From contig NZ_JPME01000042.1 in the NCBI RefSeq assembly GCF_000732605.1, forward strand, positions 1 to 64,000: a DNA stretch of 64,000 bases. Reading direction: 5' to 3'. Both the position numbers and the translations under genes were made by a program. The notes beneath the pieces are model-generated. The model worked only from the letters and a program-made list of their open reading frames with translations, did not search any database and was not told the origin of the DNA. Shown piece by piece: positions 7,436 to 54,385 of this stretch (position 1 is its first letter; every line of letters begins with the position of its first letter). The DNA comes from Lacrimispora celerecrescens (GTDB taxonomy: Bacteria; Bacillota; Clostridia; Lachnospirales; Lachnospiraceae).

Positions 7436-7465
7436 CTAAAACTATAAAGCAATATAAGAAAAAGC

Positions 7466-7708
7466 ATTGACAAGACCAGTATCATATCAGGAAAGGCCAG
7501 AGAGAGACGTGTTTGGTGAAAGCGTCTTACGGGAATGATGTGAGAAAACCAGCTTGGAGCGTCCCGTAATGGGGAACGGTGATTCCGTTATCATCATATG
7601 AAGTGGTTTGAACGTTTAATTTGTTCACTCAAGTAAGGGTGGAACCGCGATTTCTTTGAATAGAATCGTCCCTTTCTGTATGGAAGCATACAGAAAGGGG
7701 CTTTTTTT
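7466..7708 (+). ncRNA. T-box leader (tRNA-sensing riboswitch) of thrS
   Basis: The leader carries the diagnostic T-box sequence AAGGGTGGAACCGCG (7635-7649), followed by an intrinsic terminator CCCTTTCTGTATG / CATACAGAAAGGG with a T-run (7669-7708). The upstream region has the long stem I with an AGAGAGA motif. By analogy with other aminoacyl-tRNA synthetase T-boxes, uncharged tRNA-Thr pairs with the leader and favours the antiterminator. I could not fix the specifier codon with certainty; the Thr specificity is inferred from the gene downstream. Confidence 0.92.
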
Positions 7709-13191: not shown

Positions 13192-13264
13192 CTCCCCGAG
13201 TAGGACTTGAACCTACGACCCAACGGTTAACAGCCGTTTGCTCTACCGACTGAGCTATCGAGGA
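13192..13264 (-). tRNA. tRNA-Asn(GTT)
   Basis: 73 nt read on the minus strand. The acceptor stem TCCTCGA pairs with TCGGGGA, the discriminator base is G, the D-loop has AGCTCAGTCGGTAGAGC, the anticodon loop CTGTTAA gives GTT (Asn), and the T-arm is GTAGGTTCAAGTCCTAC. CCA is not encoded. It lies 65 bp downstream of tRNA-Leu(TAA) in the same direction, probably one transcript. Confidence 0.96.
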
Positions 13265-13329
13265 ATACATGATTTATTATACTCGAAAAGATAAATATGT
13301 CAATAGGAAAATCTAAACAATAAAAAAAG

Positions 13330-13413
13330 TGCGGGAGATGGGACTTGAACCCACACGTCTATACAGACACAAGATCCTTAGTCTTGCCTGTCTGCCAATT
13401 CCAGCACTCCCGC
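13330..13413 (-). tRNA. tRNA-Leu(TAA), copy 1
   Basis: 84 nt on the minus strand with a GCGGGAG/CTCCCGC acceptor stem, a long variable arm as in class II tRNAs, and anticodon loop CTAAGGA (TAA, Leu). It is almost identical to the plus-strand copy at 13706-13789 except in the variable arm. Confidence 0.95.
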
Positions 13414-13509
13414 ACAACGAACTCTATCTTATCACCATAATGTAGAATTGTCAATATTTTTTGAAAAATATATACAAAAAAAATATTTGAAAAATTTGGA
13501 GAAATGTTG

Positions 13510-13538
13510 TTGACAGATAGGAGCTTGTATACTATAAT
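13510..13538 (+). promoter_or_regulatory. consensus promoter of the tRNA-Leu pair
   Basis: TTGACA (13510-13515), 17-bp spacer, TATAAT (13533-13538), about 33 bp before the mature 5' end of tRNA-Leu(CAG). Confidence 0.85.
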
Positions 13539-13571
13539 AGCTATTGTTGTTACGAGAGATAACAACGAAAT

Positions 13572-13655
13572 GCAGAAGTGGCGGAATTGGCAGACGCGCA
13601 CGGTTCAGGTCCGTGTGGTAGCAATACCTTGAGGGTTCAAGTCCCTTCTTCTGCA
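13572..13655 (+). tRNA. tRNA-Leu(CAG), copy 1
   Basis: 84 nt, acceptor GCAGAAG/CTTCTGC, long variable arm, anticodon loop TTCAGGT (CAG, Leu). It is identical in sequence to the copy at 24832-24915. It is transcribed from the consensus promoter just upstream, together with the tRNA-Leu(TAA) that follows. Confidence 0.96.
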
Positions 13656-13705
13656 TGAAACTATACAGATTGTCATAGCTGTGTGGTTTTCATTTTATAT
13701 GACAT

Positions 13706-13789
13706 GCGGGAGTGCTGGAATTGGCAGACAGGCAAGACTAAGGATCTTGTGGTTGTATGATCGTGTGGGTTCAAGTCCCATCTCCCGCA
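13706..13789 (+). tRNA. tRNA-Leu(TAA), copy 2
   Basis: 84 nt, acceptor GCGGGAG/CTCCCGC, anticodon loop CTAAGGA (TAA). It differs from the divergent copy at 13330-13413 only in the variable arm (TGGTTGTATGATCG in place of TGTCTGTATAGACG). Confidence 0.95.
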
Positions 13790-24831: not shown

Positions 24832-24915
24832 GCAGAAGTGGCGGAATTGGCAGACGCGCACGGTTCAGGTCCGTGTGGTAGCAATACCTTGAGGGTTCAA
24901 GTCCCTTCTTCTGCA
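24832..24915 (+). tRNA. tRNA-Leu(CAG), copy 2
   Basis: 84 nt, identical to the copy at 13572-13655 including the variable arm and anticodon loop TTCAGGT. A promoter-like TTGATT...TACTATAAT stretch lies about 70-40 bp upstream, and a strong terminator follows 9 bp after. Confidence 0.96.
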
Positions 24916-42838: not shown

Positions 42839-43054
42839 GCGGATAAAAGATCTGCTAAATTTGACTATTTCACATATCCATGATAAGGTTAATGAAACAA
42901 CTCCGAATATCTTTCAGGTAGTGGGGGAACCAATCTAAGGGGTGAATCTTATTTTAAGAGGGGCAGCTTGGATGCCCTAATCCGTCAGCTAATCCCATAG
43001 GAGTATACCAAGCGAATGACGAAGCTCAGTAAGAGTTAGTTTATCCGCTTTTTT
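42839..43054 (+). ncRNA. ydaO/yuaA-type c-di-AMP riboswitch
   Basis: The region holds the conserved blocks of this class: GTGGGGGAACC (about 42920-42931), AGGGGTGAATC (42938-42948), TGCCCTAATCCGTCAGCTAA (42973-42992) and CCCATAGGAG. An outer pairing GCGGATAA (42839-42846) with TTATCCGC (43041-43048) closes the structure, and six Ts follow, so the closing stem itself may be the terminator. In the known class, c-di-AMP binding turns expression off, often for potassium and osmolyte transporters. The gene downstream, a cation/proton antiporter, fits. Its 5' limit is uncertain. Confidence 0.85.
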
Positions 43055-51272: not shown

Positions 51273-51650
51273 TTACTCCTCCTCCTGGTAAAACATGGTT
51301 AACAGTTCTATCAGTTTGCCCAGTGATATACCGCTGGTACGGGCAATATCGGCGGCTTCCTGCAGATGTTCCTCCGCTTTTCGCTGCTGTTCTTCCTGAA
51401 AAAAATCTTTGTTTTGTGCCGATACAAAACTGCCTCGCCCAACAGTTGTTTCAATGAAGCCGTCCCGTTGTAAATCCTCATAGGCTTTTTGTACGGTGAT
51501 GACGCTGACATGAATGGATTTAGCCAATGCCCGCATGGATGGAATAGGATCTCCGGTCTGCAGTTCTCCGCTCATAATCAGCGCCTTTATCTGCGAAGTG
51601 ATCTGTTCATATATGGGCTTATTTGTATTACTGCTGATTATAATCTCCAC
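51273..51650 (-). CDS. GntR-family regulator (YtrA subgroup)
   Basis: 125 residues. N-terminal winged helix: IYEQITSQIKALIMSGELQTGDPIPSMRALAKSIHVSVITVQKAYEDL, then RDGFIETTVGRGSFV, followed by a short C-terminal helical extension of about 50 residues, the YtrA size and form. Repressors of this kind control ABC operons in response to cell-envelope antibiotics. The inverted repeat 26 bp upstream of its start is a plausible operator. Confidence 0.9.
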   Translation of the reverse strand: MEIIISSNTNKPIYEQITSQIKALIMSGELQTGDPIPSMRALAKSIHVSVITVQKAYEDLQRDGFIETTVGRGSFVSAQNKDFFQEEQQRKAEEHLQEAADIARTSGISLGKLIELLTMFYQEEE

Positions 51651-51675: not shown

Positions 51676-51696
51676 TGTACTTAGTGAACAAGTACA
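51676..51696. promoter_or_regulatory. YtrA-type operator upstream of the GntR-ABC operon
   Basis: TGTACTT-AGTGAAC-AAGTACA is a perfect inverted repeat with 7-bp arms, 26 bp before the GntR start codon. Typical position and symmetry for autorepression by a YtrA-like dimer. Confidence 0.55.
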
Positions 51697-51743
51697 TTAT
51701 AAGCAGTGCATTTCGCCATGTCAATAGGGAAAAGAAAAAAAGA

Positions 51744-51772
51744 TTGACCGGATTTTCTTTCCGTGGTATAGT
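51744..51772 (+). promoter_or_regulatory. promoter of the MutS2-like gene leader
   Basis: TTGACC (51744-51749), 17-bp spacer, TATAGT (51767-51772), one mismatch each from consensus. Confidence 0.75.
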
Positions 51773-51844
51773 GATGGAAGTATAAAAGATAGGATGTGTG
51801 TGTTTGTTAATTGTATTTAATCATGGAGCATAAGGCAGTTTAAT

Positions 51845-51952
51845 ATGAAAAACAGGAATCGGATCAGGAAGGCCATAGGTCTTACCTTTATTTCGTATAC
51901 CTGTTTTGCCCATGAGATACAAAGCAGACAGAATAAGGTTAAAAGCCTGTAA
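51845..51952 (+). CDS. leader peptide of the MutS2-like gene
   Basis: 35 codons, ATG 51845 to TAA 51950-51952. The peptide starts MKNRNRIRKAIGLTF and ends RQNKVKSL; it is basic with no membrane segment. A weak site AAGG lies ten bases upstream. The stop codon falls within the 5' arm of the terminator at 51941-51983, so a ribosome reaching the end would mask that arm and allow readthrough. Its length and stop position are those of regulatory leader ORFs before antibiotic-inducible ABC-F and rescue genes. I have no homologue in mind for the peptide itself. Confidence 0.6.
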   Translation: MKNRNRIRKAIGLTFISYTCFAHEIQSRQNKVKSL

Positions 51953-51983
51953 GACGTCAATTTGTGGTCTTACAGGCTTTTTT
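51941..51983 (+). terminator. conditional intrinsic terminator in the leader
   Basis: AAAGCCTGTAAGAC pairs perfectly with GTCTTACAGGCTTT over 14 bp around GTCAATTTGTG, followed by further Ts. It lies 94 bp upstream of the MutS2-like start. Confidence 0.85.
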
Positions 51984-52076
51984 GCGCGATGAACGAGCAA
52001 AACTAACATACTGTCTGCCCTATGCTCCATGAACCTCAGGGAACCAGTTGAAATCACGAATAATGAGGAGAATTAC

Positions 52077-53993
52077 ATGGATCACACATTTCAGATTTTA
52101 GAATTTAATCTTATATTAGAAAAACTTGAAGAATTTGCACACACGGAAGCAGCGAAGGAGCATATAAAAAATTTGACCCCATGTCTGAAGGAGGGCGAGG
52201 TGAAAAAGAGCCTTCGTGATACGACCGAAGCCAGGACCATCATTGACCGGATGGGGCTTCCTCCCGCAGTCAGCATGAATGGTCTGAAGGAAATTATGAT
52301 TACGGCAAGACAGGGCGGCTGCCTGTCTGCAGAAGAACTGGAACAGACAGGAGGAATGCTCACCGCAGTAAAACGGTTTAAGGACTTTTTAAACCGGTGC
52401 AAATACTTGGAGCTTGGCCTGCCTTATTATGAGCAGGACTTAAACCCATTGGAGGATCTGGCAAGGGAGATTTATGAAAGCGTCAGAAATGGCAAAGTAG
52501 AGGACAGCGCCAGCAAGCAACTAAAAAATATCCGCCAGGATGTGGCCAGATTGGAAGAAAAGCTGCGGGCAAAAGCAGAGTCCATTTTAAGGGGTAACAA
52601 AAAATATTTTTCCGATTCTTATGTGACCATAAGAAACGGCAGACTTTGCCTCCCTGTTAAAAAAGATTACAGGTCAGGGGTTCCCGGCAGTGTCATTGAC
52701 CAGTCAGCAACCGGCTCCACCCTTTTTATTGAACCGACAGCCATAACAGAGCTTAACGGGCAGCTGGAGCTTTTAAGAATTGAGGAGGAAAATGAGGCAA
52801 GAAGGATCCTGTATATGCTTACTGCCTCAGTGGAAGAAAATTTAGAGGTTCTGGAAGGGAATAAACGCCTTCTTGAAAAGCTGGATTTCCTGTTTGCAAA
52901 GGGAAGCCTAAGTGCCTCTATGGCAGGTACCAGCCCAGGCATTAATACGGATCGGATCATAAAAATCGTAAACGGACGCCATCCATTCATGAGCCCGGAA
53001 ACCGTGGTGCCTTTAAATTTTGAACTGGGAAAGAAGGAACGGGGAATTGTAATTACCGGACCCAATACAGGAGGAAAAACCGTATCCATCAAGACGGTGG
53101 GACTGTTCTCCCTTATGGCCCAATGCGGCCTTCACCTGCCCTGCGAAGAAGCCGATCTTTGTATGAACAGTCAGGTGCTCTGTGATATCGGAGACGGTCA
53201 GAACATTACGGAAAATTTATCCACCTTTTCCGCCCATATCACCAATGTAATGAAGATCTTAAAGGAAGCCGGTCCGGAGAGCCTGGTCATCCTTGATGAG
53301 CTTGGATCAGGAACAGACCCGGCGGAAGGAATGGGAATCGCCATTGCCATACTGGAAGAGTTAAGAAGCAACGGCTGCCTTTTTCTGGCAACCACCCATT
53401 ATCCCGAGGTAAAGACTTACGCTAAAGAGGCGGAGGGCATTACCAACGCACGAATGGCTTTTGATAAGGAAACCCTTAGGCCTCTTTACCGTATGGAGAT
53501 TGGGGAGGCGGGAGAAAGCTGTGCCCTTTATATAGCCAAACGGCTGGGAATGCCGGATTCTATGATAAGAAGAGCCAGAAGATACGCTTACGGAGAGCAG
53601 AAAAGCTTATGGGAAGAAGAGTCAAAAACCTTAAAAGAGAGTGCTGAACACTTGAACTTAAAAGGCCCCAAAATAGAAAAAATGAAAAAGACGACGGTGA
53701 ATAAAAATGTAATGGAAAAAAAGTTCACCATCGGAGACAGCGTGTTAGTTTATCCGGATAAGAAAAAGGGAATTGTATGCAAGCCTGTGAATGATAAAGG
53801 GGTGCTGCAGGTCCAGATGCCGGATAAGAAAATCTGGGTCAACCAGAAACGGGTAAAGCTTCTTGTTGCCGCAGAGGAACTTTATCCGGAGGATTATGAT
53901 TTTTCCATAATTTTTGATACCGTAGAAAACAGAAAGGCAAGGCATAAGATGGAAAAGGGATATCAGGAAGGTCTGGAAATCAGAATAGAGTGA
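52077..53993 (+). CDS. MutS2-like ATPase lacking a Smr domain
   Basis: 638 residues from ATG 52077 (AATGAGGAG upstream). MutS2-type core and clamp helices (about 1-290), Walker A GPNTGGKT (328-335), Walker B LVILDELGSGTDP (403-415) and the following TTHYPEVKTYA. The C-terminus has a KOW-like segment (VLVYPDKKKGIVCKPVN) but ends without the Smr nuclease domain of standard MutS2 (about 780 residues). MutS2 proteins bind collided ribosomes or recombination intermediates; a Smr-less form could split ribosomes without cutting RNA. It is preceded by an attenuation leader, which suggests induction by translation stress. No neighbouring gene is co-transcribed. Confidence 0.85.
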   Translation: MDHTFQILEFNLILEKLEEFAHTEAAKEHIKNLTPCLKEGEVKKSLRDTTEARTIIDRMGLPPAVSMNGLKEIMITARQGGCLSAEELEQTGGMLTAVKRFKDFLNRCKYLELGLPYYEQDLNPLEDLAREIYESVRNGKVEDSASKQLKNIRQDVARLEEKLRAKAESILRGNKKYFSDSYVTIRNGRLCLPVKKDYRSGVPGSVIDQSATGSTLFIEPTAITELNGQLELLRIEEENEARRILYMLTASVEENLEVLEGNKRLLEKLDFLFAKGSLSASMAGTSPGINTDRIIKIVNGRHPFMSPETVVPLNFELGKKERGIVITGPNTGGKTVSIKTVGLFSLMAQCGLHLPCEEADLCMNSQVLCDIGDGQNITENLSTFSAHITNVMKILKEAGPESLVILDELGSGTDPAEGMGIAIAILEELRSNGCLFLATTHYPEVKTYAKEAEGITNARMAFDKETLRPLYRMEIGEAGESCALYIAKRLGMPDSMIRRARRYAYGEQKSLWEEESKTLKESAEHLNLKGPKIEKMKKTTVNKNVMEKKFTIGDSVLVYPDKKKGIVCKPVNDKGVLQVQMPDKKIWVNQKRVKLLVAAEELYPEDYDFSIIFDTVENRKARHKMEKGYQEGLEIRIE

Positions 53994-54067: not shown

Positions 54068-54214
54068 ATCTTTTTGATCTGACCAATGTTGAAATTCTAT
54101 GGCAGAATTATACAGGATATTGTGTTAATTTGACGGCATTGCATACCTTATGGTAAAATATGTAAGATAGCTGAAGTTCATATTAGGGGGGATTGGCTTT
54201 GACGTTTGTGAATT

Positions 54215-54385
54215 TAACCGAATCAAGTAAGTCCCCCACTTCAAATGCGAAAAGCATTAAGTGGTGGGTGGGGACTTACTTGTGTCAGGTGGAGTACAAG
54301 CTCCACCTGACAAGCAGCGATAGCTGCTATTCGGTTATGAGCAAGTAGCGAAGCGGATTGCGAATATCCCATTGACTGTCGATCT
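54215..54385. mobile_element. multi-hairpin element related to IS605 ends
   Basis: Outer arms TAACCGAAT (54215-54223) and ATTCGGTTA (54329-54337) enclose three hairpins: AAGTAAGTCCC...GGGACTTACTT (54226-54282) with inner ATGC-GAAAA-GCAT, GTCAGGTGGAG-TACAAG-CTCCACCTGAC (54284-54311) and AGCAGC-GATA-GCTGCT (54313-54328). The first resembles the right-end hairpin of IS200/IS605 elements, such as the one at the left edge of this window. It carries no ORF, so it may be a non-autonomous derivative. A 34-nt tail at 54345-54378 recurs at 62046-62079. Confidence 0.55.
54345..54378 (+). repeat. dispersed repeat, copy A
   Basis: AGTAGCGAAGCGGATTGCGA continuing through ATATCCCATTGACT is about 30/34 identical to copy B at 62046-62079. 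Both are intergenic on the same strand. Confidence 0.7.

Follow-up and report, generated by a model that had tools for sequence, protein, structure and literature searches.

A putative ribosome-mediated attenuator before a MutS2 paralogue

The window, which is the whole stretch of 64,000 nucleotides analysed here from contig C42 (NZ_JPME01000042.1) of the 5.0-Mb genome of Lacrimispora celerecrescens, probably has a ribosome-mediated transcription attenuator upstream of a gene for a MutS2 paralogue, and comparative sequence analysis puts a rough probability of 0.72 on this reading, in which the gene encodes a stall-inducible ribosome rescue or splitting factor resembling HflXr. The leader RNA spans about 300 nucleotides between the promoter and the main gene. 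In the proposed mechanism, a short RNA from a sigma-A-type promoter would carry a nine-codon leader open reading frame (ORF1), the RNA of which is the B arm; B would pair with a downstream D arm and hold it away from the intrinsic terminator, which would then form and keep the gene off. A ribosome stalled on the first codons of ORF1 would cover B, leaving D to pair with the terminator loop through a stem of ACAAA:UUUGU plus flanking pairs that would trap the 5' arm of the terminator inside it; with the terminator blocked, transcription would reach the MutS2-paralogue gene. The leader, the B:D helix, the middle hairpin (M), the terminator (T) and their conservation are supported by sequence, and the D:loop antiterminator by prediction. 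The original prediction had also proposed ribosome-mediated attenuation at this gene, which comparison with relatives strongly supports, but it named a different leader and a different antiterminator, neither of which held. The features of the attenuator are as follows.

51744..51772, plus strand: sigma-A-type promoter TTGACC-17-TATAGT, from a consensus scan
51791..51794, plus strand: Shine-Dalgarno-like AGGA of ORF1, 9 nucleotides before the start, AGG invariant in 23/23 rows
51804..51833, plus strand: leader ORF1 with TTG start, nine codons (MLIVFNHGA and stop), assigned by conservation; its RNA is the B arm, the candidate anti-antiterminator
51849..51907, plus strand: middle hairpin M, AAAACAGG / CCTGTTTT plus an inner hairpin, from the RNAalifold consensus and pair counts
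51908..51929, plus strand: D arm GCCCATGAGATACAAAGCAGAC, partner of B if B is free and predicted partner of the terminator loop if B is covered
51941..51983, plus strand: intrinsic terminator T, 15 contiguous pairs, a loop with invariant TTTG and a U run, from folding and four pairs with two-sided changes
51961..51965, plus strand: terminator loop UUUGU, predicted partner of ACAAA in D, from column conservation and pair counts
52015..52031, plus strand: E arm CTGCCCTATGCTCCATG, which complements the 3' half of ORF1 and is a potential anti-Shine-Dalgarno of the main gene
52065..52070, plus strand: Shine-Dalgarno sequence GAGGAG of the main gene, from sequence
52077..53993, plus strand: SMR-less MutS2 paralogue, 638 amino acids, from TIGR01069 (597 bits), orthologues and an AlphaFold model

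Conservation of the leader peptide

When the regions 5' of the gene were aligned for 23 loci of the genus, among them the window's own (row L001), all 23 were seen to encode MLIVxxHGA followed by a stop codon, from a TTG or ATG start at the equivalent place (variants include MLIVFNHGA, MLIVYNHGA, MLIVSNHGA and MLIVSEHGA), with AGGA, once AGGG, nine bases 5' of the start. The promoter that had been predicted at 51744-51772 is present, and comparable promoter boxes are visible 5' of the same-genus orthologues. G023 retains an intact leader (L044) despite an interruption of its main gene, which was matched in three pieces in the assembly. A covariance model (R1) built from 12 same-genus leader sequences finds one strong match (160-210 bits) in each of 24 of the 25 genomes of the genus, the next best match scoring below 30 bits; the exception, G010, is an assembly that is 67% complete and has one MutS2 match only. 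When 299 genomes of the family were searched with R1 under stricter filters, the four best matches outside G000, L053-L056, together with L060, were likewise upstream of this gene and represent five further genera, and three other matches (L057-L059) had no match to the paralogue protein.

A structured, conserved 5' leader that ends in a terminator would also suit a translation-independent riboswitch or T-box-like element in which ORF1 is incidental. This explanation is very improbable: the frame, start, Shine-Dalgarno spacing and stop of ORF1 are kept in 23 of 23 loci while GTA and GTG alternate as synonymous codons and TTG and ATG as starts, comparable open reading frames recur in other genera, and a search of 51700-52100 against Rfam returned no riboswitch or leader family at its gathering score, the weak matches lying far below. 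One of these, to BTnc005, scores 20.4 bits (E value 0.015) where the gathering score is 174.8, and was taken as chance. At the codon level, 45 leaders encode Val4 as GTG, GTA or GTT, Ser3 as AGT or AGC, and Leu2 as TTA in 42 of 45; RNA pairing may partly constrain the leader codons, as with the TTA of Leu2 and the letters shared among Bacillales leaders described below, and the codon-level test of the peptide is mixed.

Helices B:D, M and T

The RNAalifold consensus of the leader consists of three parts, B:D, M and T, the last pairing 51941-51955 with 51967-51981. The fold of 51779-51983 is more stable than those of its shuffles (z -6.2, with 0 of 200 shuffles as good), as is that of the longer leader 51779-52095 (z -5.6, 0 of 100 as good). 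Over the 23 rows, 95.8% of the cells in the three helices are paired, compared to 38-54% when partners are slid by one to three columns, and two-sided changes occur in 43 cells, where shuffles average 13.6 and none of 500 is as high. T accounts for 26 of the 43, M for 16 and B:D for one. Within the genus, helices 1-3 of B:D are nearly invariant, with single-sided compatible changes and 97-100% of cells paired. The best support for B:D is from a sister genus, where L024 retains approximately 18 base pairs of it with different letters. ORF1 overlies the predicted anti-antiterminator helix B:D.

The leader named in the original prediction was a different one, immediately downstream of ORF1:

51845..51952, plus strand: 35-codon open reading frame, judged incidental; comparable frame in 7/23 rows

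This frame, the TAA of which lies in the 5' arm of the terminator as predicted, was proposed to sense stalled ribosomes, with GTCTTAC pairing with GTAAGAC as the antiterminator; ORF1 and the B:D pairing did not figure in that proposal. Both the frame and the pairing exist in the window, and so does the terminator hairpin with its U run, which has 15 contiguous pairs, but GTCTTAC is at 51879-51885, eleven bases from the place given for it (51890-51896). Conservation of the stop of this leader and of the named pairing among relatives had been proposed as the check, and both fail. The ATG frame is open in L002-L006 as well as in the window, a GTG frame of equal length occurs in L012, and L007 has ATG-TAA there, so that a frame ending in the terminator arm is found in 7 of the 23 same-genus rows; the pairing is complete (7/7) in 3 of 23, the window included, and the segment lies in the interior of hairpin M, where conservation is poor. 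Control by the 35-codon frame is accordingly the least probable of the explanations considered here, and the leader is more probably ORF1, with the D arm and the terminator loop as its likely antiterminator.

Predicted stall-dependent switch

Terminator loops need no particular sequence. In this terminator the loop columns read TTTG without exception and the following T is present in 22 of 23 rows, and ACAAA of D can pair with UUUGU of the loop in 97.4% of cells. To predict the switch, partition functions were computed for the 23 sequences, each ending with the terminator loop. Counted from the first base of the P-site codon, the ribosome placed on ORF1 masked 14 nucleotides on the 5' side and 15 on the 3' side; for comparison, an inverse toeprint peak at 17 nucleotides downstream of the P site has been reported (PMC6238534). 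The mean probability of D:loop pairing is 0.06 with B free, rises to 0.84-0.89 with the ribosome on codon 1, 3 or 5 of ORF1, and is 0.58 at codon 7 and 0.39 at codon 9. The switch is predicted in 22 of the 23 sequences.

In a wider test, 45 loci were supplied and 31 were scored, 28 of which are outside the genus and have different letters. The number of pairs between the terminator and D is predicted to increase from 0.9 with B free to 7.7 with B covered, compared to 3.9 with shuffled terminators (Wilcoxon p 1.4e-5). A locus passed if it had at least 3 pairs and a rise of more than 2, which was found in 25 of the 31; an earlier count that used a wider D gave 22 of 32. Among the 15 leaders of the mostly Bacillales set described below, predicted terminator pairing goes up on stalling in 13 and exceeds the shuffled mean in 12.

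Distribution of the paralogue and its leaders

The paralogue was found (E value <= 1e-140) in 60 of 299 genomes of the family, counting the genome of the window. Leaders of the form ML[SITRV][VIAP] were found in 37 of 60 upstream regions outside the genus, including 34 of the 47 that are within the family. None of the 60 reverse complements has one, and shuffled sequences give 1.7 on average and at most 6; eight regions added later, six of them with a leader, bring the family total outside the genus to 40 of 55. Examples from other genera are MLSVIVMEKIAK, MLIVVMEKIAK, MLRVVVMENTAN and MLIVSVKDYTAK, and related leaders that escape the regular expression are MSVLSVEVKDN, MSVLSVTVMIN and MSVSR. 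In a scan of named genomes, of which the best 80 of 592 loci were retained, a leader of the M..VLN type (MLGVVLN, MSVVVLN, MSAVLN) precedes 15 of the 16 loci that were sorted as Bacillales or other Bacillota and are mostly Bacillales, compared to 0 of 16 reverse complements and a shuffled mean of 0.06 (maximum 1). All 15 of these leaders have a terminator-like hairpin on their 3' side, and 12 of the 15 share the letters GTTCTTAACT. The other 23 short loci of the named-genome scan comprise 12 that match either expression, two of them in Lacrimispora, and 11 that match neither.

Neither expression matches any of the full-length MutS2 loci, 0 of 15 in which a start was found and 0 of 41 full-length controls, 33 of which have an SMR-like motif and the shortest of which reads 402 amino acids. 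Both expressions were written after the lists had been viewed, on largely the same loci, so that the counts are descriptive rather than blind; the reverse-complement, shuffle and full-length controls were scanned with the identical post hoc expressions. The 60-region scan omitted ten fetched regions for which no start had been mapped; eight of these are the regions added later, and the other two are L106, which starts inside the gene, and L039. L043 was dropped because its upstream part is short, and L079 gave no start. The leader counted for L036 is probably due to chance, and L080 was counted as a miss although its leader, MLIASEYGA, can be read in L053, which is the same place.

A recurring terminator sequence, AGCATGGCTGTATGGTCATGCT, was seen across genera in L083, L086, L096 and other loci, and the D arm also recurs across genera as GCCTTACAA..TGCTT, so a second covariance model is feasible for that clade. 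A search of plasmids matched 15 records, all with less than 60% identity; 14 of them are predicted to be non-mobilizable and several have chromosome-like length.

The leader peptides bear on the nature of the signal. Stalling as the signal, the identity of the inducing drug or stress and the activity of the protein are inferred; the natural inducer would be a ribosome-targeting antibiotic that stalls early elongation. The aliphatic run of the leaders is similar to the stretches IAVV and IFVI found in Erm leaders and would suit macrolides. The main rival on the signal is starvation for branched-chain amino acids, in which ribosomes lacking charged tRNA would stall at Leu, Ile or Val codons and the gene would answer amino acid limitation. 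The RNA design would be identical for starvation and drug sensing, and the leaders are rich in these residues (mean fraction 0.45 over 53 hand-picked strings); on the other side, 7 of the 53 contain at most two such codons (among them MLA, MSVSR, MFAGVFNS and MSAGVLN), 44 of 45 leaders have Ile, Ser, Arg or Thr at codon 3, which starvation sensing does not predict, and nothing evident connects the gene product with branched-chain metabolism. Amino acid attenuation is therefore improbable, and drug-induced stalling remains the preferred signal.

The MutS2 paralogue

The original prediction described the main gene as MutS2-like. Its product belongs to the MutS2 family, but it is a paralogue that lacks the SMR domain and not the full-length protein, a separate MutS2 of 796 amino acids being encoded in the same genome. 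The NCBIfam model mutS2 (TIGR01069) matches residues 2-538 with 597 bits, Pfam finds MutS_V only, and the TGPNTGGKTV and DELGSGTDP blocks are invariant in 23 rows; the MutS2 core, the clamp and the P-loop ATPase with its Walker motifs are accordingly retained. In alignment with full-length MutS2, the paralogue is without the coiled coil of approximately 100 residues and without SMR; it retains a KOW-like domain and has a C-terminal motif of its own:

53718..53870, plus strand: KOW-like domain, about residues 548-598, from alignment to the KOW domain of full-length MutS2 and five predicted strands
53880..53951, plus strand: clade-specific C-terminal motif LYPEDYDFSIIFDTVENRKARHKM, residues 602-625, from alignments

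Twenty-two further paralogues that could be followed to the stop codon have 626-660 amino acids and no HGKGTG-like SMR motif, which is present in 16 of 16 full-length MutS2 proteins. An AlphaFold model of the paralogue has a mean pLDDT (predicted local distance difference test) of 80 and a predicted template modelling score of 0.67, with a five-strand domain within residues 555-597. The nearly identical public proteins are named from Lacrimispora, Clostridium and Hungatella. In a 41-row tree, which left out the Bacillales copies, a branch supported at 100/100 separates the seven full-length proteins from the rest. The midpoint root nevertheless places five short copies of other families with the full-length proteins, so the tree does not establish that the short copies arose once. 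A second, shorter paralogue (L042, G013:C1:3835547-3837070) has 516 amino acids from its start and a long branch, and a scan upstream of it found no leader of the ML[x][V/I] kind.

The product is proposed to be an inducible ribosome-splitting or rescue factor that would stand to the housekeeping MutS2 as HflXr stands to HflX. The MutS2 of Bacillus subtilis uses its ATPase to split collided ribosomes, to which it is recruited by KOW, which contacts uS10, and above all by SMR, and its deletion is reported to cause hypersensitivity to chloramphenicol, tetracycline and erythromycin (PMC10897456). It is unlikely, although less so than starvation sensing, that the attenuator is real and the protein a DNA-acting or other non-ribosomal MutS2-like ATPase. 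The missing SMR and coiled coil, the role of MutS-family ATPases in DNA repair and the public name "DNA mismatch repair protein MutS" given to some members would fit such a function. The best match of the paralogue among sequences in the PDB is nevertheless ribosome-bound MutS2 (7qv3), and the two best Foldseek matches are MutS2 models, the integrative model 9a5o followed by the collided-disome complex 7qv3; the KOW-like domain, which in B. subtilis makes the contact with uS10 (PMC10897456), remains; and it would be strange for a DNA repair gene to be expressed in response to stalling. A ribosomal function is thus preferred for the paralogue.

A possible second, translational layer

The 17-nucleotide inverted repeat that the original prediction saw around the leader (51822-51838 / 52015-52031) is present, and its downstream half is the E arm. 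The core of E, GCTCCATG, complements CATGGAGC of ORF1, and its eight pairs are kept in 22-23 of the 23 rows. Overall, 87.7% of B:E cells are paired compared to 26-49% in slid versions, one of which exceeds the covariation score of B:E; because the core is invariant, the B:E duplexes of individual loci are often no better than swapped ones. CTCC of E is also predicted to pair with GGAG of the main-gene Shine-Dalgarno sequence in 20 of 23 segments (z -3.3 to +1.0). E may therefore have two alternative partners, the end of ORF1 and the Shine-Dalgarno sequence of the gene: during a stall near the start of ORF1 the 3' half of B would remain available to E, and the Shine-Dalgarno sequence would be left exposed. 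E is not general, L026 having no CTCCAT between leader and gene. As the main switch it was rejected, given the weak z values of its pairing with the Shine-Dalgarno sequence and the failure of that pairing to be predicted in the window's own segment, and it was retained as a possible second layer only.

Observations that weigh against the proposed attenuator

Several observations count against the attenuator as described. Within the genus B:D shows a two-sided change only once, and of the five covariation measures two are not clearly beyond shuffles: pairs with a two-sided change number 9 compared to 6.0 in shuffles (23/500), and further pair types 31 compared to 30 (166/500). The antiterminator has no covariation in the genus (214 of 500 shuffles have as many paired cells) and so rests on fold predictions and the conserved loop. 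The 5' arm of the terminator is paired about equally in both states, with a probability of 0.60 when B is free and 0.53-0.54 when it is covered at codons 1-5, and the model consequently rests on the D:loop pairing that would enclose this arm. L007 shows no predicted switch, six of the 31 loci in the wider test fail, and of the 45 supplied, four were set aside for weak B:D (L005, L036, L088, L118) and ten have no terminator by the scan, L001 among these being covered by the 23-sequence test. Pairing of B is weak in 2 of the 15 leaders of the mostly Bacillales set. Equilibrium folding is silent on co-transcriptional timing. The second layer through E is plausible and weakly supported, the pairing of E with the Shine-Dalgarno sequence not being predicted in the window's own segment (L001) or in L005 and L006. 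Finally, given what is reported of SMR in B. subtilis MutS2 (PMC10897456), splitting of ribosomes by a paralogue without SMR is not to be assumed.

Relation to known systems and significance

ABC-F, Erm and HflXr genes are known to be controlled by attenuation through a leader open reading frame. A close parallel is HflXr of Listeria monocytogenes with its rli80 leader, which is likewise a second copy of a ribosome-splitting factor and is controlled by transcription attenuation through a leader reading frame over an anti-antiterminator, an antiterminator and a terminator; it differs in that it belongs to the HflX family and has a 14-codon leader with an RLR motif, and its induction and resistance have been shown experimentally (PMC6310831), whereas induction of the MutS2 paralogue is a prediction. 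The attenuators of ARE-ABCF genes (cplR, vmlR, lsaA) similarly place very short leader reading frames before a terminator, with the consensus MR[I/M], MIN or MAGN, and cplR combines transcription and translation attenuation (PMC10201436); they regulate an ABC-F protein, whereas here the leaders are ML[I/S]V.. or M..VLN and the gene is a MutS2 paralogue. The uORFC-6-1 motif, which is found mostly before hflX in Bacillales, also combines a conserved leader reading frame and an RNA structure with a ribosome-rescue gene (PMC8632094), but the gene family and the RNA are different, and the main text of that study contains 0 occurrences of "muts". With MutS2 (RqcU) of B. subtilis the paralogue shares core, lever, clamp, ATPase and KOW-like domain, and it differs in lacking coiled coil and SMR, in its own C-terminal motif and in occurring beside a full-length MutS2 in the genome.

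In the original prediction leader attenuation was not known to have been described for MutS2-like genes. Full-text literature searches, covering few subscription papers and no preprints, agreed with this: among the papers listed, none describes such control of MutS2 as judged by title or the opening of the abstract. The principle of attenuation is known, whereas its use on the MutS2 family and an antiterminator that captures the terminator loop seem to be new. The odds are about even that the reading extends across the Bacillota, with SMR-less copies ("MutS2r") acting as inducible ribosome-splitting factors of antibiotic tolerance under drug-stall leaders of the types ML[I/S]V.. and M..VLN and a loop-capturing antiterminator. 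If the reading is true for the widespread paralogue, a further ATPase family would join the inducible ribosome-rescue and resistance genes, one that is hidden by the public names "endonuclease MutS2" and "DNA mismatch repair protein MutS"; the similar leaders in many Gram-positive genera point to an overlooked group of inducible rescue or tolerance genes. How a MutS2-type ATPase without the collision-sensing SMR domain would find its ribosomes would become a testable question. The leaders also offer ready candidates for natural stalling sequences in drug tests.

Neighbouring features

On the minus strand at 51696-51724, 19 bases from the attenuator promoter, is a divergent perfect sigma-A consensus (TTGACA-17-TATAAT) that faces an open reading frame at 51273-51650, by eye a small GntR-type regulator; the reading frame after it is, by eye, an ABC transporter ATPase. 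Immediately 3' of the MutS2-paralogue gene, 54212-54345 is a repeat element with internal inverted repeats. The genome has four other copies of it, approximately 130 bases long and 83-99% identical, along with four matches that are partial or weaker; by appearance it is a short interspersed family or one like miniature inverted-repeat transposable elements. Elsewhere in the window are a T-box leader (7458-7676), a cyclic di-AMP riboswitch (42891-43019) and five tRNA matches in 13192-13789 and 24832-24915, four of which score an identical 49.9 bits, and these equal-scoring matches include close copies on opposite strands.

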